DNA of 22,003 nt. It comes from Candidatus Eiseniibacteriota bacterium. GTDB taxonomy: Bacteria; Arandabacterota; Arandabacteria; Arandabacterales; Arandabacteraceae. Location of the stretch: NCBI GenBank assembly GCA_030622265.1, contig JAUXGG010000002.1, positions 1 to 22,003 of the forward strand. The letters are read 5' to 3'. Positions 1,056 through 13,568 of the stretch are shown here, piece by piece; the first letter of the stretch is position 1, and each line of letters starts with the position of its first letter. Below the pieces are notes generated by a model, which had not been told where the DNA came from, ran no database searches, and was given only the letters and a program-made list of their open reading frames with translations. The translations under genes and the position numbers were made by a program.

Positions 1056-1120
1056 CTGGAAGTCATGGCCATTATGAATCAAACAAACTCAGTCTATGCA
1101 GGCAGTATTTGTGGAACACC

Positions 1121-1156
1121 GCCGGCTTTGCGCGGATTGCGCGCACAAAGGCCGGC
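1121..1156 (+). other. Long imperfect hairpin in the leader upstream of the DUF11 operon
   Basis: GCCGGCTTTG (1121-1130) pairs with CAAAGGCCGGC (1146-1156), with one bulged G. CGCG (1131-1134) pairs with CGCG (1140-1143) around a five-base loop, and CA at 1144-1145 is bulged. The hairpin ends about 100 bp before the first DUF11 gene. No T-run follows, so it is not a canonical terminator. It may be an mRNA leader structure, but no known riboswitch core was recognised. Confidence 0.35.
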
Positions 1157-1246
1157 CTGTCAGTGCGCTATCCCCCCGGCAGACCAATACACCGCAGGAC
1201 ACAGAGAATGCCAATATAGCGTCCTTGCTCGGGCTGTAAGTGAGGC

Positions 1247-1253
1247 AAGGAGG
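1247..1253 (+). promoter_or_regulatory. Ribosome binding site deciding the GTG start at 1260
   Basis: AAGGAGG lies six bases before GTG 1260, which opens directly into a typical signal peptide. The upstream ATG at 1065 would add about 65 residues without a signal-peptide character, so 1260 is preferred. Confidence 0.75.
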
Positions 1254-1259
1254 TTCGAG

Positions 1260-2243
1260 GTGAAGTGGTCAGCCGTTTTAGGGATTACGATTACCATGAT
1301 CTGGATTGCTGCAGCGTCGCTCATGGCGCAGAGCACACCCGCATGCACCGACATAGTCAATCAGGCAACGGCGACCTTTACGATTGGCACAGAGGAATTC
1401 ACGAGAAATAGCAACGCTACATCAACGCTGGTCGCCCAGTTGCTGGATGTCAGCGTCGTGTGGCAGGATGTTGCCAGCATCACGGTGAGTCCGGGCGACG
1501 CCGGCCAGGTGCTTACATTTCTGGTGACCAACACGGGCAATGCGACGGACTCGTTCCTGCTTGAGGGCTTGAGCATCCTGCCTGATGATGACTTCAATCC
1601 AATCCTTCGAGACCTTTATCTCGACTCAAATGGCAACGGCACCTATGACCCCGGCGCGGATGATCTCTATATCGCCGGTGGCCATGATCCCGTGCTTGAT
1701 GCCGGCGAGTCCGTTGCCGTATTCCTGCTGAACGGCATCCCGCCGGATCTGGATGACGGTGACGAGGGAGAGAGCCGCCTGACGGCGACATCCAATACCG
1801 GCAGTGGGGACCCGGGCACCGTGATCCTTGAGGCCACCGAGTGTGACGCCGACGCAGTTGTCGGGACATCAGGCGGAAGCAGCAGTGACACAGGTACCTA
1901 CATAGTCTCCAATGTGGTTGTCAATGTGGTCAAGTTGGCGGCGGTCGGCGATCCGTTCGGGGGCACGGAGCCGATTCCCGGAGCGACCATCGCCTACACG
2001 ATAACAGTATCGTTCTCAGGTTCCGGAACGGCCGAGGGCGTGGTCATCACGGATCTCATCCCGGCAAATACGACCTACAGCGCCGGCACGCTTGCCCTGA
2101 ATGGGGCATCGCTCACCGATCCCGTGGACGGCGATGCCGGCGATGTCGGCGGCACGACGCCCGGAGTGGTGACTGTGAGCCTCGGCGACATGCCGGCCGG
2201 GTCGGCTGATCAGGTAATAATATTCAGTGTTGTCATCAACTAA
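1260..2243 (+). CDS. Secreted DUF11 (conserved-repeat) protein, first gene of the envelope locus
   Basis: A 327-aa exported protein. Residues 1-23 (MKWSAVLGITITMIWIAAAS) form a signal peptide. Next comes a module with the T-x-I-x-N-x-A-x-x-x-F pattern (TDIVNQATATF) that recurs in two other genes of the locus. A central Ig-like module starts at about residue 90 (VTNTGNATDSF). It carries an EF-hand-like loop, D122-S-N-G-N-G-T-Y-D130, that could bind calcium. The last 110 residues are a DUF11 module with the family signature IPGATIAYTI...VVITDLIPANTTY. Function is not known; the fold suggests a structural subunit of a surface layer, fibre or adhesin. The start is GTG at 1260, set by AAGGAGG. The next gene follows after 19 bp, so they are probably co-transcribed. 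Domain assignment is confident; the role is inferred. Confidence 0.85.
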   Translation: MKWSAVLGITITMIWIAAASLMAQSTPACTDIVNQATATFTIGTEEFTRNSNATSTLVAQLLDVSVVWQDVASITVSPGDAGQVLTFLVTNTGNATDSFLLEGLSILPDDDFNPILRDLYLDSNGNGTYDPGADDLYIAGGHDPVLDAGESVAVFLLNGIPPDLDDGDEGESRLTATSNTGSGDPGTVILEATECDADAVVGTSGGSSSDTGTYIVSNVVVNVVKLAAVGDPFGGTEPIPGATIAYTITVSFSGSGTAEGVVITDLIPANTTYSAGTLALNGASLTDPVDGDAGDVGGTTPGVVTVSLGDMPAGSADQVIIFSVVIN

Positions 2244-2262
2244 AGGAAAGGAGAGAAGGGTA

Positions 2263-2760
2263 ATGTCGTCTTTTAAGGCTATCGCGCTTCTGGCAGTGCT
2301 TATGGTTCTTACCTTTTCATCCGCCGTCGTGGCGGAGAAGGACGCAGTGGTTGAGCTCAAGACATTGGCGGAGATCGAGGTGGAAGTGGTCACCGAGGAT
2401 GGCGAGAGAGAGATCCAGCGGATCGAAGCCGCCAAGGTGATTCCCGGTGATGAAGTCATCTACACCATCCATTATGCCAATGTCGGACCTGAGCCTGCCG
2501 AGAACATCGTCATCACGGACCCCGTCCCGGAGCACATGCTTTACCAGGATGGGAGCGCATCCGGTGAAGGAGCTTCTGTGACCTTCTCGGTGAATGACGG
2601 CAAGACATTTGATGTGGCGAAGAACCTGATGGTTCCGGCCGAAGATGGCAGTGAGCGTCCGGCGGCGCCTTCAGACTATACCCATGTCAAATGGACGCTC
2701 GAAGGTGAGCTAGAGCCCGATGAGGCCGGCTTCGTCACTTTTCGAGCGCAGTTGCAGTAA
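2263..2760 (+). CDS. Small secreted single-domain DUF11 protein
   Basis: A 165-aa protein with a clear signal peptide (MSSFKAIALLAVLMVLTFSS, cleavage near VVA at 23-24), followed by one DUF11 module. Family hallmarks are KVIPGDEVIYTIHYANVG, IVITDPVPEHMLYQDGSA, FSVNDGKTF and YTHVKWTLEGEL. Small one-domain relatives with this 'DPVPEHM...DGSA...YTHVRWTL' pattern are familiar in Gram-negative envelope clusters, but I know of no assigned function. ATG 2263 is preferred over the upstream in-frame TTG at 2227 because the purine-rich stretch AAAGGAGAGAAGGG precedes it and the signal peptide begins there. It lies 19 bp after the first DUF11 gene and 216 bp before the next. As a single free module it could be a minor subunit, a cap or a regulator of assembly (inference). 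Confidence 0.85.
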   Translation: MSSFKAIALLAVLMVLTFSSAVVAEKDAVVELKTLAEIEVEVVTEDGEREIQRIEAAKVIPGDEVIYTIHYANVGPEPAENIVITDPVPEHMLYQDGSASGEGASVTFSVNDGKTFDVAKNLMVPAEDGSERPAAPSDYTHVKWTLEGELEPDEAGFVTFRAQLQ

Positions 2761-2773
2761 GCAGTAGTCAAGG

Positions 2774-2792
2774 CCGGACACGGACGTGCCGG
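2774..2792 (+). other. Hairpin after the small DUF11 gene
   Basis: CCGG-A-CAC (2774-2781) pairs with GTG-CCGG (2786-2792) around the loop GGAC, starting 14 bp after the stop at 2760. There is no T-run. It could slow or stabilise the transcript in the 216-bp gap that separates the first two genes from the third; no promoter was recognised in this gap. Confidence 0.3.
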
Positions 2793-2976
2793 AAACGGGG
2801 GGGACATCACAAGCGAACCGGAGAGGGATATCCCGTTTGCCTGTCAATAAGAAGATCGAAGGGCAGGAGACAATTGAATGAAGCAGGCACGGGCTTCTTG
2901 TTTGGAAGGCAACGGAAACGGTAAAAGCGCACATCGCATGCTCAGACAAAAACACGTGGAAGGAGGGAGGCGCATT

Positions 2977-4098
2977 ATGGCAGGAGGAAGACTGGCACTG
3001 GCCGGGCTCTTCTGTGCGGTGGTACTGGCACTTGCGGTGCCCCACACGGCATTGGCTGCTGGTACCGCTTCGGGTACCGATATCGACAACACCGCGACCC
3101 TGGATTACCAGGTGAGCGGTATTGACCAGACCCAGTTGTCGAGCTTTGTCACCTTCACGGTGGACAACAAGGTGGACCTTACGGTCGTGGCCCAGGATGG
3201 TAGTGAGGTTGCGGTCATTCCGGGTTCGCTTTTTGGTGACGGCGTATACAATGTCCTGACCTTCAGGGTCACCAATGTTGGAAACACGGCTCAGGATTGC
3301 TCGTTGAACGTGGTCACCGTGACCACCGGAAGCGCTGCCAAGTTCGGCGGCACCGATGCGTTCGATATGAGCCCTGAACGGGCTCCGGTCACACGCAACT
3401 TTGTGAACTCCGTGATGGACGTTGCCGGCAGCTATGCTAATGGCACCGACACCGGCAACTATATCGACGAGCTGCCTTCGGACAGCTTCTTCGATGTCTT
3501 TGTGGTACTGGATGCTCCGCTGACTGCCGCGGATGGCGAGATAGCCTCATATCATCTGGTTGCCACGGTGCATGATGCCGGTACGGGCGGATCGCTGGGC
3601 GACCTGACAACGGCCGACACAGGGGCCTGGAACAGCGGAACCGTTCAGGTGGTCTTCGCAGACGCCGCCGGAACCGCTACGGGCGACGTCCAGCATGATG
3701 GTCAGCACTCCGATCAGGACGACTACGAGATCGCATCGGCGGACCTGTCCATCACCAAGTCGTCGGTGGTGGTCAGCGATCCGTTCAGTGCTTCGGATCC
3801 CAAGGCAATACCGGGTGCGACCATAAGGTACACCATTGATATCGCGAATAGTGGCGGCACCGATGCCCAGACCTTGATCACCGTGGATCAGATCCCGGCA
3901 AACACCATGTTCGTCAGCGGCTCGGTGACGACCTCGAATAGCAACGGCGGCGCCACCATAACCGTGGAGTACTCCGATGACGGAGTTGTCTGGGTGGGCG
4001 CTGAAACCTCACCGGTGGCATACATAAGAGTCACCAATTCGGTGGTGGATGCCAGCACCGGCACCGCCCAGATAACGTTCGATGTGACCGTCGACTAG
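2977..4098 (+). CDS. Secreted DUF11 protein, third subunit-like gene
   Basis: A 373-aa exported protein. Residues 1-27 are a signal peptide (hydrophobic LALAGLFCAVVLALAV, cleavage after TALA). The mature N-terminus has the shared module GTDIDNTATLDYQV; then comes a central Ig-like module starting VTNVGNTAQD; residues 255-373 are a C-terminal DUF11 module with AIPGATIRYTIDIANSG and VDQIPANTMFVSGSV. The order of modules is the same as in the 327-aa protein upstream, so they look like paralogous structural subunits. ATG 2977 follows AAGGAGGGAGG. An in-frame ATG at 2878 also has an AGGAG eight bases upstream and would add 33 residues before the signal peptide; I consider it less likely but cannot exclude it. 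The stop TAG lies within the RBS of the next gene (TAGGAGG), which suggests coupled translation. Confidence 0.85.
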   Translation: MAGGRLALAGLFCAVVLALAVPHTALAAGTASGTDIDNTATLDYQVSGIDQTQLSSFVTFTVDNKVDLTVVAQDGSEVAVIPGSLFGDGVYNVLTFRVTNVGNTAQDCSLNVVTVTTGSAAKFGGTDAFDMSPERAPVTRNFVNSVMDVAGSYANGTDTGNYIDELPSDSFFDVFVVLDAPLTAADGEIASYHLVATVHDAGTGGSLGDLTTADTGAWNSGTVQVVFADAAGTATGDVQHDGQHSDQDDYEIASADLSITKSSVVVSDPFSASDPKAIPGATIRYTIDIANSGGTDAQTLITVDQIPANTMFVSGSVTTSNSNGGATITVEYSDDGVVWVGAETSPVAYIRVTNSVVDASTGTAQITFDVTVD

Positions 4099-4112
4099 GA
4101 GGCCGCGTAAGC

Positions 4113-7100
4113 ATGAAGTCTGTGCTCTGGCCTCTGCTGAAGGCTGGGCTGTCCCGGATAGGTCACCTTGCCCGGAGTGACGGGCTGGGCCCGGTCCAGG
4201 ACACCGCCGAGGCAGGAAACAGATTGATAGACAGGTTGGCCGGTTCCTTCAGGGACCGGCCAATCGGACTTTTCTTAAAGGGGGTTCGACCGGTCATCTC
4301 GAATTGCGGGCGACGCGTGGCGCAACCCATTGCTATCACAGTGGTTACGCTGTTCACCGGCCTCATGCTGATGTGCGGAGGTGCGCTCGCGGTACCACCG
4401 GGTACGGAGATACCCAACACTGCGCTTGCGATTTATGATTTCGGAGGCATGGTCGAGATCGAGTCCCCGTCCAACATGGTAGTCATAATCACCACCGGCC
4501 CGAGGACTCCATCGACACTTGAGTTCATGCACTATGCTCCCGGTTGTCCTGATGCGGAGCTGGTCAAGGTTCCGATCACCTACTTTAGCACGACAGGAAC
4601 CGAAGCGGGTCCATTTGTGCCGATCCCGCCGCCTGGCCTGATGAGCGACCCGGTGCCGCCGGTTCCTGGAGCCGCAGTAGCCCTTAAATCTACAGATTGC
4701 TTTCGGCCCGGTGAACCCATCTTCCTTCGGCTCACCGATCTCGACCAGAATAGTGACCCCCATACTGCCGAGACCGTGCTGGTAGGCGTGACGGTCTGTC
4801 ACACCGTTGAAAGTGAGCTCCTTCGTCTTACCGAGACAGGCACCGGCACCGGGGTTTTCGCAGGGTACATCGAGTTCATCAGCGACCAGCCCGCAACTGC
4901 AAACAACGGCACGGTGACGGTTCACTACGAGCACAAGATCCTGGCCGAGTACACCGACGGCAGTGACGGGAGCGACATCTCCCGGTCCGCGTCATGGACA
5001 AACACCACCGGGATCGCTTTCGACACCTCTACCGGCCTGCCGGTGAACGGAGTCGCAATCACACTTATCGATGTGGATACCGGGCTTCCAGTCACAGTCC
5101 ATGGGATAGACGGCCACAGTCTGTATCCCTCGACCGTGGTAACCGGTGAACGCGTAATCGACAGCAGCGGCAGGGAGTATGGGCCCCAGGCGGGTGCCTT
5201 CCGCTTCCCATTCCCCGAGCCCGGCACCCAGCGGCTCAAGGTTGTGCCGCCCGAGGGCTATTCCGCACCATCTACCGTCCCAACAGAAGTTATTCAGACC
5301 CTGCCCGGGGCGCCGTTCTCCATCGTGGAGCCGGCCTCGCGGGGAGGATCCTTTGTCGTCAAGTGCAGGTTTTCAACACGGATAGATATCCCCATCGATC
5401 CGGCGGGGACCGAGCTTTTTCTCACCAAGGCGGCCGACCGGGAGTGGGTCACGGTCGGCGACTTCGTCGGGTTCTCCCTCAAGGTGGAGAACACCTCGCC
5501 CGGGCCATTTGGCAAGGTTATGCTTCGCGACAGGTTGCCGCCGGGTTTCGCATACCAGGCAGGATCAACGACTATCGATGGCACAGGTGCGCCGGATCCC
5601 GAGATCGCCTCGGACGGAAGGATGCTTGAGTTTCTTGTCGGGAGCCTGAGTTCGAACTCTACCTCACGCGTTCGCTACGTGACCGAGGCCGCTGCAGGTG
5701 TGGTGCCTGGTCCCGCGGTCAATACCGCTGTTGCCGCCGATACCTCGGGTATAATCTCCAACACCGCGCGGGCAAGGGTGCGGGTGATAGAAGATCCCCT
5801 GACGGCGAGAAGCCTGATCGTGGGGAGTGTCACGGCGTGTGATTCCTGCGCTACTTGTGACAGCGCCGAAGCCGGCCTCGCGGGCGTGAGGATCATGCTG
5901 GAGGATGGGACGTACACTCTCACCGACCGGCGCGGCATGTTCCACTTCCAGGCAGTGAGGCCCGGAGTGCATGTTGTTCAGCTGGACCCGGCCAGTCTTC
6001 CGCCTGCCTACACGGTGGTTTCCTGCGAGCGCAACAGCCGCTTCGCGGGCAGGCCCTATTCCCGCTTCGTCGATCTTGAGGCAGGAACCATGTGGCGCGC
6101 GGATTTTCATATTGCTCCAAAGCCTCGCCTCGCCGGTGAGGTCGGGCTCGAGCTCGCAAGCATCGTCAGGGGCGACGTCACGGATTATCTGATAAGGCTC
6201 TCAGGAAGCGCCGTGCCGGTTGGGAACCTCAGGGTACAGGTCATGCTTCCGGATGGCGTGACCTATGTGGATGGCAGCAGCGACCTGGATGGTTTGCCGA
6301 TCGATGACCCATCGGTGGTATCCAATGTGCTGACGTACAGGCTTGGCGACGCAGGAGCCGGATGGGAGCAGGACTTGAGCTTCAGCGGCGGGGTAAGCAG
6401 GTATTCCGAACCGGGTGAGCTTACGACTCGGGCGCTCCTTACCTTCGACAGCCCGACCCAGACCGACCAGCGGACACCGGTGGCTGAAAACGTGATACGG
6501 ATAGAGGACACCCGGAGCTCCGCGGAGCACAGTTTCACCATGCGCCCTCACTTTGCGACCTTGAGCGCAGAGCTCGGTCAGGAGGACAGGCAGGAACTTG
6601 ACGAGGTAATAGACCGGCTGGAGACTTCCGAGGTCACGCTCGTCGAGGCGGACGGCCATACGGACAGCCGCCGCATACGGGAAAGGAGCCAGCACCTCTT
6701 TGCAGACAACTATGCGCTTTCCTTAGCGCGGGCCCGGAGCGTGGGCGACTACCTTGCCAGGGGTTTCGGTCTTGATCCATCACGGGTCGAGGCCGAGGGG
6801 AAGGGTCCCGATGAACCCGTGGCAGGCAATGAGACAGTCGAGGGGCGTGCCCTGAACCGAAGAGTCGAGGCCCTGGTGACAGCCAAGGAGGCAAATGGGG
6901 AGAGGATACTCGAGCCCACCAGGGCGCGCGACCGGGTCGTGGCGAATACCCTTGGAACCAGGGGCGGAGAGGAACCCGATTCCCCTGAGGAGGAAACTCA
7001 GGCCACTGCGGTCATGCCCGATTATAGCGAGACCTGGCTTGCGTCCGCCGAGCCCGGACTCGAGTGGCTCTGGCCCGAGACCGGATTCTATCCGTCGATA

Positions 7101-10100
7101 CCGAGTCTTAAGATCGTGATCAAGCACAGGCCAGGAAACCGGCTGGTCCTTTTCCTCAACGGCGGAGAAGTGGATCCCCTCAACTTCGACAAGACCCTCG
7201 AAGGTGAAAGCGGCGAGGTGGCACTCAGCCGCTGGTCGGGTATCGATCTCGAGGAAGGGGACAATCACTTCAGGCTGGCAGTCCGGGACGATGGCGGCAA
7301 GACACGTACGATCGAGCGTACGATACACTACTCAGGGCCCCCGGTTCGCGCCGAGCTCGTCCGGGAGGTTTCCAGGCTTTCAGCCAATGGCATGGACTCA
7401 CCCGTGATCGCCGTTCGCCTGGTGGACAGCTATGACTGTCCGGCCCGAACGGGTGTGGTGGGAGCCTACTCGGTCGACCCTCCGCACCTCTCGCTCGAGG
7501 AATTCGATACTTACCAGAGATTCCCCCTCTCGGGAATGGACAAGCGAAAGCCCCAGTACACCGTGGGCAGTGATGGAATCGCACTCATCGAGCTGCAGCC
7601 TACGGCCATGTCTGGAGAGGCGACGGTCCGGTTCAACTTTGTCGATGGTGAACAGGAAATGCGGGTCTGGCTTGAACCCGAAGCGCGTGACTGGATACTG
7701 GTAGGACTCGCCGAAGGCACCCTCGGATACAATACCGTCTCCACCAACATGGAAGACATTGAGCCCGGGGATGTCGAGGATGAGTTCCATGAGGATGGGC
7801 GCGTCGCCTTCTATGCAAAGGGCAGGATCAAAGGAAGCTGGCTCCTGACCATGGCATATGATACCGAGCGATACGGCACCGGGGCAGGCCGGGGGTTCTT
7901 CCAGACTGTCGACCCCGCTGCCTACTACACGCTCTATGGTGATGCAACCCAGCAATACTATGACAGCCCGAGCGGAGAGCATCTCTATCTCAGGCTCGAG
8001 CGCCGCGAGTTCTATGCCCTGTTCGGGGATTACAGTACCGGGCTCACGATTACCGAGCTATCAAGATACAGCCGTACCTTCACCGGGATTAAGTCCGAGC
8101 TCCGGACCGGCCCCTACGCTTTCAACCTGTACGCGGCCGAGACCGGTCAGGCCTTCATCAGGGATGAGATCCGCGGTGACGGCACGTCGGGCCTTTACAG
8201 ATTGTCGCACCGGGGCGTCATATTCAATTCCGAGAAAGTCATGCTCGAGACGCGTGACCGCTTCCGCAGCGAACTTATTGTCTCATCCCGCCGCCTGATG
8301 CGTCACCTCGACTACGATATCGATCTTGAAGCCGGGACCCTCTTTTTCAGGGAGCCGGTGCCGAGCAAGGACGAGGACCTCAACCACATCTTCATAGTGA
8401 TCGACTACGAGTCCGAAGAGGAATCCGCCGAGGCCCACACCTATGGCGGCAGGGGGGCTGTGCTCCTGGGCGGACAGGCGGTTGAACTGGGTGCCACCTA
8501 TGTCCACGAGGGTGAAGCCGGAGGCGAAGGTGATCTGGCGGGTGTCGACGCACGCCTCCGGGTTGGCGCTGCCGGGGAACTCAGGGTCGAATTCGCCGCC
8601 ACCAGAGTGGAAACCGGCGAGGACGAGGTCGATGGTACGGCCTACCTGGGCGAATACCGGCACCGTTGGGGTGGGGGTGACTACAGGTTCTATGTGCGCG
8701 AGCTGGACCGGCGCTTCGGGCTCGGCCAGCAGAATGCCGGGGAGATCGGAACCCGGAAATTCGGCATCGATGCCATGCACAGGTTCAACCATCTCTTCTG
8801 GGTGGACGGGCTTGCGTACCGGCACTACAACCTGGTCACCGACGCAGTGCGCGATGTCGGAGAGGCAAGGCTCAACTTCTCGAGCGACCGCTACGCACTG
8901 CGCGCCGGTTTCCGCTACGCTAGTGATGAGCTCGACGGTGGAACAAAGACCCGCTCCGACCAATTGACGATTGGTGCGACCTGCAAGTTGTTCAGTTCAA
9001 GCCTCAGGTTGCGGCTTGATCACCATCAGTCGGTGGGAGGCCGCAACGCCAATCCGGATTACCCTACCTGCACGATTGTGGGTAGCGACTATGACATAGG
9101 CAGAAACGTCATGGCCTTTGCCGAATATGAGGTTACCCAGGGAGATCACGCCGATACCCAGGCAAGCCGCTTCGGACTCAAGGCAACGCCTTGGACCGGG
9201 GCGCGCGTCAACTCGTCTCTTAAGCGGCGGTTCAATGAGGCGGGCACACGCGTTTTTGCCAATCTGGGGCTTCGCCAGACCTGGTGCTTCCATGACAGGT
9301 GGTGCGTCGATGCATCCATTGACCATTCGCGCATGGTCAAGTACCCAGACAGCCCCGCATTCAACGAGAATGTCCCGCCGGCCTCAGGCGCCGACAATGA
9401 CTTCGTGGCGGTCTCTACCGGTCTGGCCTACAGGGAACCGACCTGGTCGGCAACTTCCAGGCTTGAATGGCGGCGTGCCGATCAAGAAGAGAAGTGGACC
9501 CTGATTGCCAATACCTTCGGTGAGCCCCGCGAGGACCTGGGGTTCTCGGTAGGAGGCCGGCTCCTGAGGGCCAGCCGCGACGACGGTTTGGACAGGATAG
9601 CGGGGGACATACGGCTCGGTCTTGCCGTCCGTCCATCAGGTTCCCGCTGGACCGTGCTCGACCGTCTTGACTTGAGGACCGAGCGATGCCGGGGCAACGG
9701 CTCCTATTCCGACAGGCGCCAGATCGTCAACAATCTGAACACGAACTACCGCGTTACCGGACAGGACCAGGTCGCTTTCCAGTATGGTTCCAAGTACACG
9801 GGCCAGGATATCGGGGCGAGCCACTTCACCGGCTACACCGACATCATCGGCCTCGAACTGCGTCACGACCTGAGTGAGAGATGGGATGTGGGCTTAAGGG
9901 GAAGCAGGCTGCATTCCTGGAATTCCAGCACGTCGGACTATGGCGCGGGCCTGTCAGTCGGTTATAATGTCGTCACCAACACATGGATAAGTCTCGGGTA
10001 CAACATCATTGGCTTCAGGGATAAGGACTTCTCTGATGGAAACTACACGGCTCAAGGACCTTTCTTGAGGCTACGCCTTAAGGTGGATCAGGAGACATTG

Positions 10101-10133
10101 AGTGATGGCCTTGGGATATTCAGCACGGAATAG
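4113..10133 (+). CDS. Giant outer-membrane protein: DUF11, Cna-B-like, OmpA-like domain and C-terminal beta-barrel
   Basis: A 2006-aa protein. A very long n-region (residues 1-70) precedes the hydrophobic signal segment (73-90; cleavage near ALA, residue 93). Then come the shared TEIPNTALAIYDF module (97-125), further beta-rich sequence, a DUF11 module (about 432-560), a Cna-B / carboxypeptidase-regulatory-like domain (567-671) with the triplet C576-x2-C579-x2-C582, another DUF11-like module (675-796), and an OmpA-like peptidoglycan-binding domain (806-923). That domain has GHTD at 848-851, the LARARSV helix with R873, and NRRVE. From about 1229 to the end the sequence shows alternating aromatic and polar strands (for example FYALFGDYSTG, GPFLRLRLKV) typical of an outer-membrane barrel. 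Having the OmpA-like domain before the barrel is the reverse of classical OmpA. It probably sits in the outer membrane, tied to peptidoglycan, as anchor or export partner of the neighbouring DUF11 proteins (inference). AGGAGG at the upstream stop serves the ATG. Confidence 0.85.
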   Translation: MKSVLWPLLKAGLSRIGHLARSDGLGPVQDTAEAGNRLIDRLAGSFRDRPIGLFLKGVRPVISNCGRRVAQPIAITVVTLFTGLMLMCGGALAVPPGTEIPNTALAIYDFGGMVEIESPSNMVVIITTGPRTPSTLEFMHYAPGCPDAELVKVPITYFSTTGTEAGPFVPIPPPGLMSDPVPPVPGAAVALKSTDCFRPGEPIFLRLTDLDQNSDPHTAETVLVGVTVCHTVESELLRLTETGTGTGVFAGYIEFISDQPATANNGTVTVHYEHKILAEYTDGSDGSDISRSASWTNTTGIAFDTSTGLPVNGVAITLIDVDTGLPVTVHGIDGHSLYPSTVVTGERVIDSSGREYGPQAGAFRFPFPEPGTQRLKVVPPEGYSAPSTVPTEVIQTLPGAPFSIVEPASRGGSFVVKCRFSTRIDIPIDPAGTELFLTKAADREWVTVGDFVGFSLKVENTSPGPFGKVMLRDRLPPGFAYQAGSTTIDGTGAPDPEIASDGRMLEFLVGSLSSNSTSRVRYVTEAAAGVVPGPAVNTAVAADTSGIISNTARARVRVIEDPLTARSLIVGSVTACDSCATCDSAEAGLAGVRIMLEDGTYTLTDRRGMFHFQAVRPGVHVVQLDPASLPPAYTVVSCERNSRFAGRPYSRFVDLEAGTMWRADFHIAPKPRLAGEVGLELASIVRGDVTDYLIRLSGSAVPVGNLRVQVMLPDGVTYVDGSSDLDGLPIDDPSVVSNVLTYRLGDAGAGWEQDLSFSGGVSRYSEPGELTTRALLTFDSPTQTDQRTPVAENVIRIEDTRSSAEHSFTMRPHFATLSAELGQEDRQELDEVIDRLETSEVTLVEADGHTDSRRIRERSQHLFADNYALSLARARSVGDYLARGFGLDPSRVEAEGKGPDEPVAGNETVEGRALNRRVEALVTAKEANGERILEPTRARDRVVANTLGTRGGEEPDSPEEETQATAVMPDYSETWLASAEPGLEWLWPETGFYPSIPSLKIVIKHRPGNRLVLFLNGGEVDPLNFDKTLEGESGEVALSRWSGIDLEEGDNHFRLAVRDDGGKTRTIERTIHYSGPPVRAELVREVSRLSANGMDSPVIAVRLVDSYDCPARTGVVGAYSVDPPHLSLEEFDTYQRFPLSGMDKRKPQYTVGSDGIALIELQPTAMSGEATVRFNFVDGEQEMRVWLEPEARDWILVGLAEGTLGYNTVSTNMEDIEPGDVEDEFHEDGRVAFYAKGRIKGSWLLTMAYDTERYGTGAGRGFFQTVDPAAYYTLYGDATQQYYDSPSGEHLYLRLERREFYALFGDYSTGLTITELSRYSRTFTGIKSELRTGPYAFNLYAAETGQAFIRDEIRGDGTSGLYRLSHRGVIFNSEKVMLETRDRFRSELIVSSRRLMRHLDYDIDLEAGTLFFREPVPSKDEDLNHIFIVIDYESEEESAEAHTYGGRGAVLLGGQAVELGATYVHEGEAGGEGDLAGVDARLRVGAAGELRVEFAATRVETGEDEVDGTAYLGEYRHRWGGGDYRFYVRELDRRFGLGQQNAGEIGTRKFGIDAMHRFNHLFWVDGLAYRHYNLVTDAVRDVGEARLNFSSDRYALRAGFRYASDELDGGTKTRSDQLTIGATCKLFSSSLRLRLDHHQSVGGRNANPDYPTCTIVGSDYDIGRNVMAFAEYEVTQGDHADTQASRFGLKATPWTGARVNSSLKRRFNEAGTRVFANLGLRQTWCFHDRWCVDASIDHSRMVKYPDSPAFNENVPPASGADNDFVAVSTGLAYREPTWSATSRLEWRRADQEEKWTLIANTFGEPREDLGFSVGGRLLRASRDDGLDRIAGDIRLGLAVRPSGSRWTVLDRLDLRTERCRGNGSYSDRRQIVNNLNTNYRVTGQDQVAFQYGSKYTGQDIGASHFTGYTDIIGLELRHDLSERWDVGLRGSRLHSWNSSTSDYGAGLSVGYNVVTNTWISLGYNIIGFRDKDFSDGNYTAQGPFLRLRLKVDQETLSDGLGIFSTE

Positions 10134-12858
10134 GGGAATGGCAGGTGTAATGGGCATGCTTAACTTGATGAGACGGAAGGCGCCTATCCTCCCATTGAGC
10201 CATCTGGTCCTGGGCCTCTCGCTGCTGGCATCGGTATCTGTTACAAGCATCACCTATGGGGCACCTGACCCTGCCTGGTCTGTACAATCTGAGCAGGCGG
10301 ACTGCTACGGGCCGGCTGAACAGGGAAGTGCAGGCTGTGACGATTACGCAAACGACATTTACGAGACCATCGACTATGTAAACCCTCCGTCGGAGTATGC
10401 GGCAACCTCCGATATACAGTACGTCCGCGGGGGCTTTGACGCCGACTACTTCTACGTCGAATACGAATTCATGGGAGACTACGATCCTGATGCGTCACCC
10501 ACTCACGAGATTGTAATCGAGATTGAGGTCGATCCAACCGCTGAGAGTCACCGCGGCGACTACTATGTCGGGGTGTATCAGAAAGTCGAATTCAATTCGG
10601 CTAATTGGGTCGATGCATACCTCGATGGGGGATACGAGATATACCGGGATTCCAACAACGATGTCGGAGGCGCCAGTCCTCTGACCTCTGATTATGGAGG
10701 AGCTCAGGGCGACGGTTATGAAACATCTGTCACCCAGGGAACTGATGACGTGTGGTGCCGAGTGGTGAGCGGCAACTTCCAGTTGGCAGTCAATAAAGGC
10801 GCTATCGGCAATCCCACCAATATTCACGTTAGAGCGTGGTCCAGGCAGTCTGCCGGCCTATCCAGAGATAGTTTATACTTCCACGATCAGAACGATACGT
10901 CGGATGTCCTCCAGATCGACAACGCGTGTGGGCTGGGAACGTATGAATGGCTGGGTATCGGTGAAGTTGTAACGGTTTCCGGCACAGTCTACCACGACAT
11001 CAACGCCAATGGCGTGTTTGACCCAGGCGAACTGGGTATAGGGAGAGGGTGGGTCAAGTTGATCTCCGGCGGTTACGCGTTCGCGGTGACCGAACCCGAT
11101 CCCGATAGCGGAATCTACAGCTTCCCCTCCGTATCTAACGGAAGTTACTTCCTTATACTCGACGATAACGATCTGCTTTCCGACACGACACCGACGGAAC
11201 CGGCCTACTGGCTATTCTGGAATCCTGCGGGTGGATCTCTGAATGTTACTGTTGCCGGGTCTGACGTCAGCGCTCAGGACTTAGGCCTGGTCTTTGACTA
11301 CGACCCGTCCACCGACTGCCTGTGCGGATACGACAATGGCAGGTACACCGAGAGAACCATAACCGTGGACGGGGACATGTCCGACTGGGGTCCCGTGGTG
11401 ACCGACATGGACAACAATGCGTGCGACGGAGCAAGCACAGACGATCTGGATTATCCGGTCCAGTCCACCGGGCGTAACCTGATACACGCCGCCGCTTGCT
11501 ACGACGACACCTATTTCTCCATGTATACCAGGCGCGTGGGCAGCAGCAAGAACACCCAGACGTTCGTGTACTATGCCGATACCAACAACGATGGATTCAT
11601 GGAATACGGTGAAACCGCAATCGTGGCCCAGTGGAAAGGAAACAAGGGGACGGTAACGCTTGGCCTCTATGGTTATGACGACCTCGGAACCGGGCCCCAC
11701 GCGCTTCTCGATGAGAACGGCTATTCTGATGGCTATAGCATGCCCGGCAACCTCTTCTTGATCCAAACACTGCCTGACGAGTCGGGCATGGGTGCCACGG
11801 AAGGTGATGGCGCGGGGGTTGAAATGGAGTGGAGCATTCTATGGTCTGACATGGGGCTTTCAGCAGGTAGCGCCATGAGGTGGCACATCTCGAGCACAAA
11901 CGCGAATCCCGGGAGTGCGGGCCTGGGCGCCCAGATCGACGACAACCTGGGTGGTTGCGGTGGTGCCTGTGCTGGATCGAACCAGTTTGGTGATGTGGAG
12001 CCTGGGCCGAAATCGATCACGCCTGGCTCGTTCTCATATCTTTTCCATCAGATCAAAAACACGGGCAACGGGGTCGATGCCTTTGATCTGGAATCCACAA
12101 ATACGGGGGACTTCGGGGTTGTGTCCTATGCGTACCATATTGATTTGGGTGTGGTGGGGGTCTATGAGGATGGCACAGATACGCTGCTCACTGATACCAG
12201 TGGGTCGGGGGTTCGTGATACGGGGGATATGGGAAGCGGGGACACAATCCATGTCATCATCGTAGTCGAGTTGCCGCCACCTCCCTTAAGCGGGACGGTC
12301 TACGTGACAACAACGGCGACATCCAACTTCATGCCGGGCTGTGGAGGTACAACTGAACCGGCCTCCGGCTATATCACTGATATCCTGACTTTCATTCCTC
12401 CCGATATTGCAGTGGTGAAGACGGTGGATGTGGTTGCCGATCCTGTTAACGGGACCACCAATCCCAAGGCCATTCCCGGTGCCAGTTTAGACTACCTCAT
12501 CCAGGCGGCCAACACGGGTGAGGGTGTGGTGGATAGTAACACTGTCGCTATTGGCGACTCAATCCCCCAGGACGCGAAGCTCTACGTAGGCGATCTCGGA
12601 GTGGCCGGCTCAGGCCCGATCGAGTTTGTGGACGGGCCTACACCGAGCGGGCTGGCATACGCGTTCATCAGCCTGGACAGTGTGATCGATGACGTGACCT
12701 TCTTCGATTCGCTCGGCGAGTATGTTCCTTCACCCGATGGTGATGGCTACGACAGTGCAGTTGTTGCCATCGAAGTCAACCCCAAAGGCCAGTTCGATGC
12801 CGCAGGTGGTGGCAGCAACCCGAGCTTCTCCGTCCGTTTCCGTATCCGGGTGAAATGA
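10102..12858 (+). CDS. Large secreted multidomain protein: CBM9-like, SdrD/Cna-B-like and DUF11 modules
   Basis: A 918-aa exported protein. The signal peptide follows a charged LMRRK segment (LVLGLSLLASVSV, cleavage near TYG-APD). Residues about 97-265 form a first beta-sandwich with aromatic- and Asp-rich strands. Residues 292-355 are an SdrD/Cna-B-like module (SGTVYHDINANGVFDPGE). About 420-555 is CBM9-like (TVDGDMSDWG). An NTGN-type module starts at about 653, and a C-terminal DUF11 module covers about 768-918 (KAIPGASLDYLIQAANTG). EF-hand-like loops at D299-x-N-x-N-G-x-x-D307 and D493-x-N-x-D-G-x-x-E501 suggest calcium binding. The GTG at 10102, or ATG 10105, lies behind AGGAG (10090-10094) and overlaps the barrel gene by 32 bp, so translation is probably coupled. 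Later ATGs at 10138 and 10150 are possible starts. It is probably the largest surface-exposed or carbohydrate-binding component of the locus (inference). Confidence 0.82.
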   Translation: MMALGYSARNRGMAGVMGMLNLMRRKAPILPLSHLVLGLSLLASVSVTSITYGAPDPAWSVQSEQADCYGPAEQGSAGCDDYANDIYETIDYVNPPSEYAATSDIQYVRGGFDADYFYVEYEFMGDYDPDASPTHEIVIEIEVDPTAESHRGDYYVGVYQKVEFNSANWVDAYLDGGYEIYRDSNNDVGGASPLTSDYGGAQGDGYETSVTQGTDDVWCRVVSGNFQLAVNKGAIGNPTNIHVRAWSRQSAGLSRDSLYFHDQNDTSDVLQIDNACGLGTYEWLGIGEVVTVSGTVYHDINANGVFDPGELGIGRGWVKLISGGYAFAVTEPDPDSGIYSFPSVSNGSYFLILDDNDLLSDTTPTEPAYWLFWNPAGGSLNVTVAGSDVSAQDLGLVFDYDPSTDCLCGYDNGRYTERTITVDGDMSDWGPVVTDMDNNACDGASTDDLDYPVQSTGRNLIHAAACYDDTYFSMYTRRVGSSKNTQTFVYYADTNNDGFMEYGETAIVAQWKGNKGTVTLGLYGYDDLGTGPHALLDENGYSDGYSMPGNLFLIQTLPDESGMGATEGDGAGVEMEWSILWSDMGLSAGSAMRWHISSTNANPGSAGLGAQIDDNLGGCGGACAGSNQFGDVEPGPKSITPGSFSYLFHQIKNTGNGVDAFDLESTNTGDFGVVSYAYHIDLGVVGVYEDGTDTLLTDTSGSGVRDTGDMGSGDTIHVIIVVELPPPPLSGTVYVTTTATSNFMPGCGGTTEPASGYITDILTFIPPDIAVVKTVDVVADPVNGTTNPKAIPGASLDYLIQAANTGEGVVDSNTVAIGDSIPQDAKLYVGDLGVAGSGPIEFVDGPTPSGLAYAFISLDSVIDDVTFFDSLGEYVPSPDGDGYDSAVVAIEVNPKGQFDAAGGGSNPSFSVRFRIRVK

Positions 12859-12890
12859 CAAAGCACGGCCATTTCTGTTCGAGTCCGGAC

Positions 12891-12920
12891 TTGACGGATT
12901 TCCCCCTCTTCGTGTAGCAT
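12891..12920 (+). promoter_or_regulatory. Candidate sigma-70 promoter of the histone-fold gene
   Basis: TTGACG (12891-12896) is followed after 18 bases by TAGCAT (12915-12920), giving 5/6 and 4/6 matches to the -35 and -10 consensus. It lies in the gap after the DUF11 locus and about 45 bp before the histone gene start, which suggests independent transcription of that gene. Confidence 0.5.
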
Positions 12921-12950
12921 GGTCGCGTGACAGCCAAGCGGGTTTCAACA

Positions 12951-12957
12951 AAGGAGG
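12951..12957 (+). promoter_or_regulatory. Strong ribosome binding site of the histone-fold gene
   Basis: AAGGAGG lies seven bases before ATG 12965: a full consensus at optimal spacing, suggesting high expression as expected of an abundant chromatin protein. Confidence 0.75.
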
Positions 12958-12964
12958 AGTAAAC

Positions 12965-13150
12965 ATGGCTGAAGACGCTCTGGTGGTTGTGTCCAAGCTC
13001 AAGGCATATGTCCGTTGGGCCGCCGGCATGAACACGTCGGGCAATGTTGCCCCCAAGCTTTCAGCGATTGTCCGGACCCTCTGCGACCGGGCGATTGAAA
13101 ATGCCAAGGCCGATGGTCGCAAGACCATCATGGACAGGGATTTCGAATAA
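12965..13150 (+). CDS. Bacterial histone-fold protein, single domain (Bd0055/HMf type)
   Basis: A 61-aa protein that is one histone fold with no tails. It starts with a helix (LVVVSKLKAYVRWA), then the loop GMNTSGNVAPKL, a long central helix (LSAIVRTLCDRAIENAKAD), and the diagnostic GRKTI...RD motif at residues 51-59. In archaeal HMf histones and in the bacterial histone Bd0055 of Bdellovibrio, the Arg and the following Asp (here R52 and D59) form the clamp that orders the last loop and helix, and Lys/Thr of the motif lie near the DNA. Length and motif order match the one-domain bacterial histones. It should dimerise and bind DNA as a nucleoid protein; whether it bends, coats or wraps DNA cannot be read from the sequence. 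It appears to have its own promoter and a consensus RBS, and stands between the envelope locus and a truncated secreted gene, with no obvious functional link to either. Confidence 0.85.
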   Translation: MAEDALVVVSKLKAYVRWAAGMNTSGNVAPKLSAIVRTLCDRAIENAKADGRKTIMDRDFE

Positions 13151-13265
13151 ACCAGGCTTTTCTTGGAACAGGAGGGGCGGGTGCACCGACTGGGAGATGT
13201 GCTTGTCTCTTTCTGTTCTAGGTTATGCAAGTCTCACCCGGAGCCGGGTAATCTGTTACGGATTT

Positions 13266-13280
13266 GTGTCGCCTCGACAC
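13266..13280 (+). other. Short hairpin in the gap after the histone gene
   Basis: GTGTCG (13266-13271) pairs exactly with CGACAC (13275-13280) around a three-base loop. An ACCCGG/CCGGGT dyad lies just upstream, near 13239-13252. Neither is followed by a T-run, so termination is only a possibility. Confidence 0.25.
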
Positions 13281-13328
13281 ACCTGTGAGCATTCCGCTCC
13301 AGGTCTACCCCTGCAATTGGAGAACGTG

Positions 13329-13568
13329 ATGCGTGAGAGCAGAAGCATTTCCGTGGCCTTGCTTGCCCTGGCGTTTGCCCTGTTTGCTTTGCACTCTCCG
13401 GCGCAAGCCCGGGAGGAAGCTCTTGATGATACCGTCAAGTGCATAGCGGCCATCAAGTGCAATTGCGGGATCAAGATCGACGGTATCATCGATGAGTCCA
13501 TATGGGACAGCGCCCCGCTGAAGAGTCATCTTGATACTGCCAATCATCCGGTGTATAATAATGGGTAA
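13329..13568 (+). pseudogene. Truncated secreted CBM9-like protein (signal peptide plus start of domain)
   Basis: A 79-codon reading frame. ATG 13329 lies shortly after a GGAG, and residues 1-26 form a good signal peptide (VALLALAFALFALHSPAQA). The remainder starts the CBM9-like pattern of secreted carbohydrate-binding or DUF5916-type proteins: IKIDGIIDESIWDSAPL, where family members have 'IDGxIDExxWxxA'. The frame then stops at TAA 13566-13568, after about 50 mature residues, while the domain normally needs 150 or more. I found no continuation in the other two frames, because the next gene begins within 20 bp. It is best read as a 5' remnant left by a deletion that fused it to the phosphoesterase gene. 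A functional small secreted peptide is possible but less likely. Confidence 0.55.

Follow-up and report, generated by a model that had tools for sequence, protein, structure and literature searches.

The closest described relative of the gene considered here is the histone HBb (Bd0055) of Bdellovibrio bacteriovorus (PDB 8CMP, 8FVX, 8FW7, 9EZZ, 9F0E), which consists of one histone fold, some 60 residues long, with a one-turn helix 3. In the literature on prokaryotic histones on which we draw (PMC10627809, PMC11317129, PMC12701072, PMC11390915), HBb is described as contacting DNA through K12, T23, S24, A25, K52, T53, R57, T8, S9 and K10, and the changes A48H, S45F and I61L as letting it bring DNA ends together like archaeal histones. 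According to the same literature, Bdellovibrio encodes both HU and HBb, and in the attack phase HBb outranks every other protein of the nucleoid fraction in abundance, HU included. Two further points of comparison are HLp of Leptospira perolatii (a bacterial FtF histone, PDB 9QT0-9QT2) and HMfB of Methanothermus fervidus (an archaeal nucleosomal histone, PDB 1A7W). Here we describe a gene at positions 12965–13150 (forward strand) of a 22,003-nucleotide stretch of contig JAUXGG010000002.1, referred to as the window, for which we computed the family, predicted fold and contact residues of the product, the conservation of the promoter, ribosome-binding site (RBS) and 3′ region, the HU-family genes of the genome and the distribution of the histone. 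The draft genome comprises 2.29 Mb on 431 contigs, with a completeness of 73.8%, and its nearest named relative is a Candidatus Eisenbacteria record. We found no literature on Eisenbacteria with a histone or on their nucleoid, and the genus or its kin may figure in published supplementary tables.

The open reading frame (ORF) runs from an ATG at 12965 to a TAA ending at 13150, 61 codons and a stop, and its product carries the motif GRKTIMDRD at residues 51–59. AlphaFold2 predicted helices at residues 9–20, 28–49 and 57–60, with a mean predicted local distance difference test score of 95 for the best model and 87–91 for the remaining four. In a sequence search of the PDB the best match was HBb (E 9e-11), followed by HLp of Leptospira (6e-5) and HTkC of Thermococcus (7e-4), and HBb was also the top fold match in Foldseek (template modelling score 0.87–0.92). 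A preliminary description of this DNA had proposed a single histone fold of 61 amino acids akin to Bd0055, and both claims were borne out by the ORF, the predicted fold and the top match. The matches to the curated models Pfam PF00808 (16.6 against a cut-off of 21.4 bits) and NCBIfam NF043032 (18 against 50 bits) remained under their cut-offs. A protein search returned 803 homologues at E≤0.001; among the matches listed, some carry the JGI name 'histone H3/H4', and one (P0084, 74% identity) comes from another Candidatus Eisenbacteria record. We compared the gene with its counterpart in another species of the same genus (locus L010, JAUVJV010000236.1, from a record labelled Candidatus Eisenbacteria bacterium), to which 162 of the 186 coding columns are identical. 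By Nei-Gojobori-type counts between these two species, the proportion of nonsynonymous differences (pN 0.089) is lower than that of synonymous ones (pS 0.266; pN/pS 0.34), indicating that the histone gene is not a chance ORF.

Residue by residue, 8 of the 10 DNA contacts of HBb are identical in the 61-residue histone (K13, T24, S25, G26, K53, T54, R58, V9, S10 and K11 in the order given above), the differences being V9 for T8 and G26 for A25 of HBb, while the dimer-interface residues L31, I35, L38, V11 and I59 correspond to L32, V36, L39, L12 and F60. Both proteins have the RD clamp with an extra Asp, the KT loop and the helix-1 SK motif, and structural alignments gave 43–48% identity; unlike HBb, which comes from Bdellovibrionota, the chain described here ends two residues past the clamp Asp. 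Across 64 aligned rows, made up of the window, 37 of 120 listed proteins and 26 of 51 loci from genome contigs, S10, K13, T24, A43, A47, R52, K53, T54, D57, R58 and D59 were invariant.

Measured against the features given for the bacterial dimer histones (HBb group, Schwab et al. 2024), the protein is closer to HBb than to other prokaryotic histones, a kinship judged here by E-values against solved structures. R52-K53-T54 and D59 are separated by four residues, as in HBb itself, although the paper prints the group motif as RKTxxxD, with three residues between T and D. Among the helix-1 lysines (11, 13 and 17), K11 and K13 are present and R17 replaces the third, which we counted as agreement. 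The predicted helix 3 (57–60) is truncated like the third helix of 3 to 4 residues reported for alpha-3 histones. The residues for dimer–dimer contacts are absent: the positions of the archaeal tetramer His and Phe are occupied by A49 and N46, and the A48H, S45F and I61L changes of HBb have no counterpart (A49, N46 and a chain end at HBb position 60). The HMf likeness put forward earlier held for the histone fold, the RKT loop and the RD clamp, which are shared with HMfB, and failed for the three-turn third helix and the tetramer-forming His, in whose place there are a short helix and an Ala. HLp shares the histone fold and the truncated third helix but only 34–36% identity; of its three conserved tetramer residues R49, N53 and R55, the first two are replaced by N46 and D50 (mapped by eye on the PDB-search alignment) and only R55 has a counterpart (R52). 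The 61-residue protein is a new member of an already described, patchily distributed group, the bacterial dimer histones.

By far the best-supported account of its function, which we regard as very probable, is that of an HBb-family homodimer that bends DNA without wrapping it, made from a single-gene transcript and auxiliary to HU. This mechanism is carried over from HBb. The product would be a histone of small size and mildly basic character, two subunits of which would join through their long central helices, as judged from HBb. With its short third helix and missing tetramer residues, the protein falls among the non-wrapping bacterial dimers, and since the dimer–dimer contact residues are missing, separate dimers would be expected to bend DNA, much like HU, and to form neither nucleosomes nor tetramers.

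The gene appears to have its own sigma-70-type promoter and is probably transcribed alone. A candidate promoter, TTGACG-18-TAGCAT, lies at 12891–12920 on the forward strand with 9 of 12 consensus matches (one promoter-like site found against 0.2 expected from shuffles of a 701-base region), and a Shine-Dalgarno sequence, AAGGAGG, at 12951–12957 on the same strand, 7 nt before the ATG. Both hexamers are identical in L010, where the spacer is 17 instead of 18, as are the Shine-Dalgarno sequence and the last 43 nt upstream of the ATG, and the candidate sigma-70 promoter and full-consensus RBS of the preliminary description are both supported as sequence features. Over the 5′ stretch (12879–12964) 81 of 86 columns are identical in the two species, and over the 3′ stretch (13151–13297) 138 of 147. 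Change in these flanks (4/85 and 9/147, respectively) is below the synonymous change pooled over the histone and the next gene (19.5 of 86.3 sites), with one-sided Fisher p of 4e-4 and 2e-4 on rounded counts from only two genomes. Taken together, the unchanged promoter hexamers and RBS and the conservation of the flanks beyond synonymous sites indicate a real, probably single-gene, transcription unit. The strength of the RBS had also been taken as a sign of abundance, a use that did not survive comparison: in 20 of 26 relatives taken as single-fold, GGAGG or AGGAG lies no more than 20 nt from the picked start, for which the nearest ATG served as a guess, so strong RBSs are widespread in the family and no gauge of abundance. 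The 26 were taken from 51 loci; the other 25, mostly doublet-like or N-terminally extended by eye, were left out of this count and of that of strong folds below. In L046 (1119–1358) and similar Bacteriovoracaceae loci, GRKTV stands in frame before the picked ATG, and by eye these resemble doublet histones, with two folds in one chain; L033 has a cysteine-rich N-terminal part reminiscent, by eye, of published ZZ histones.

Folding predicted, in both species, a hairpin of 26 pairs at 13162–13222 (forward strand) just downstream of the stop codon, with an energy of −32.3 kcal/mol (13161–13228) against −35.2 for the matching L010 stretch and a z of −2.2 for the wider fold. Three differences separate the two species within the hairpin, two in the paired arms with pairing kept and one in the loop part. 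Strong folds (z≤−2) in the 100 nt past the stop were found in 17 of 27 rows (the single-fold relatives and the window), and because such folds are common in the family, the simplest reading is that the hairpin is the probable 3′ end of the transcript, although the absence of a U-tract after it weighs against this. The transcript ends, like the expression level, we infer. We also considered, and rejected, a conserved family of non-coding RNA downstream of the gene, as there was no Rfam match at gathering score in the window and none up to E 10 in 12800–13450. As DNA, 13151–13330 matched only two genomes out of 60, namely the one that holds the window (one place) and that of L010's species (G001), and at other histone loci similarity ended within about 10 nt of the stop among the best 60 matches, bar two chance-level matches (E 0.67). 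A more elaborate possibility, which we consider rather unlikely, is that an acquired HBb-type histone was built into the nucleoid beside an unreduced HU set, with the conserved leader and the 147-nt 3′ region with its hairpin possibly controlling the mRNA, giving two separately regulated bending proteins.

Searching eight genomes of the phylum with the window protein gave histone matches in two, both of the window's genus, and the 64-row profile found the same two plus weak matches in G007 (E 0.0011 and 0.12). In the four other genomes of the family (85–96% complete) neither search found a histone. PF00216 (Bac_DNA_binding, the HU/IHF family), whose control was positive in 9 of 14 known genomes, was above cut-off in all eight, at 3–5 places each: four in the window's genome, thereby answering the HU/IHF check proposed earlier, and four in G001 (one with an internal TAG). 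The histone has thus not replaced HU. The preliminary description went further and raised the possibility of a main chromatin component for the whole lineage, which is unsupported, given a histone in one genus and HU/IHF-family genes in all eight genomes. In its narrower form, a main chromatin protein of its genus standing above HU as HBb does in attack-phase Bdellovibrio, the idea seems to us unlikely. It can draw on a clean promoter-like site and an RBS kept in two species, on untranslated flanks that change less than synonymous sites, and on the published account of Bdellovibrio, where the histone tops the nucleoid fraction despite HU, so that coexistence alone does not make a histone minor. 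Set against this, the HU-family matches (four) are as numerous as in relatives lacking the histone (3–5), the histone is missing from all four other family genomes examined, and one paper puts HBb transcripts near the level of IHF, HU and SMC. An additional nucleoid protein beside HU, in one genus, is most likely what the gene encodes.

Wider sampling shows how scattered the relatives are. Four of 60 sampled genomes, the window's own included, match the histone, and a scan of genome contigs gave at least 51 loci, a lower bound because the scan uses exact peptide words, with labels including Planctomycetota, Latescibacterota, Gemmatimonadota, Bdellovibrionota/Bdellovibrionales, Chlamydiota/Chlamydiae, Myxococcales and others. 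In a tree built from 28 of the 51 loci together with the window and HBb (30 rows), the window groups with L010 (98/91). Together with the histone's occurrence in just one of the family's genera in the genomes examined, this scatter would fit a horizontally transferred passenger gene with little role in the nucleoid. L024 and L027 pair with good support (100/97) across phylum labels in this poorly resolved tree, and between the two species the upstream neighbourhood differs and the downstream match is lost at 13518. Yet purifying selection and conserved flanks in both species indicate that the histone gene has been retained, most Chlamydiota rows cluster (97/89, with one outside), and metagenome bins may be mislabelled; we think such a passenger improbable, and with 15 of 27 inner branches open no transfer route can be named. 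Least credible of all is an FtF tetramer that wraps DNA like Leptospira HLp or Thermococcus HTkC, which we hold to be very improbable, as HBb matches better in sequence and on both structural scores, and the HLp tetramer residues R49 and N53 are replaced. A separate 56-residue ORF of FtF-type look occurs in G007, of the same class (L064, 1486–1653); it is closest to HTkC (E 9.6e-7) and so probably represents another histone subfamily within this phylum.

As for the surroundings, the window and L010 share 12879–13297 at 91% and have different upstream genes, which first suggested a mobile cassette; this was rejected. The match resumes at 13298–13518, after 214 extra nt in L010, so the shared block takes in the start of the next gene, a DUF5916 gene with a CBM9-like match just below cut-off (173 of 188 columns identical at its start, pS 0.185, pN 0.048). 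No histone relatives were found in viral contigs (peptide-word scan), plasmids (E 1e-5) or phage records (E 0.01). As candidate empty sites, G004 and G005 have the DUF5916 orthologue and no histone, but apart from DUF5916 no ORF of ≥90 amino acids in the stretches compared had a match at E 1e-4 in either the window or L010. The window's DUF5916 ORF (13329–13568), the start of a secreted-type protein, departs from L010 at 13518 and ends with a stop at 13568, which reflects either a rearrangement or a join made in assembly, and in L010 (P0121) the frame stays open over 449 codons or more; other DUF5916 matches in the same genome are distant (25–41% identity). Upstream, 1065–12858 holds a run of large proteins resembling a cell-surface cluster, with two DUF11 matches above and one below cut-off, one SdrD_B-like domain just below cut-off and one ORF of 2006 amino acids.

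A genus near Candidatus Eisenbacteria thus joins the known carriers of HBb-type histones, with no principle changed. Among the genomes examined this histone is confined to one genus while HU-family genes are kept throughout, which speaks for a role alongside HU rather than in its place, and one genus with the histone beside examined sister-genus genomes that lack it, all with HU-family genes, offers a natural comparison.
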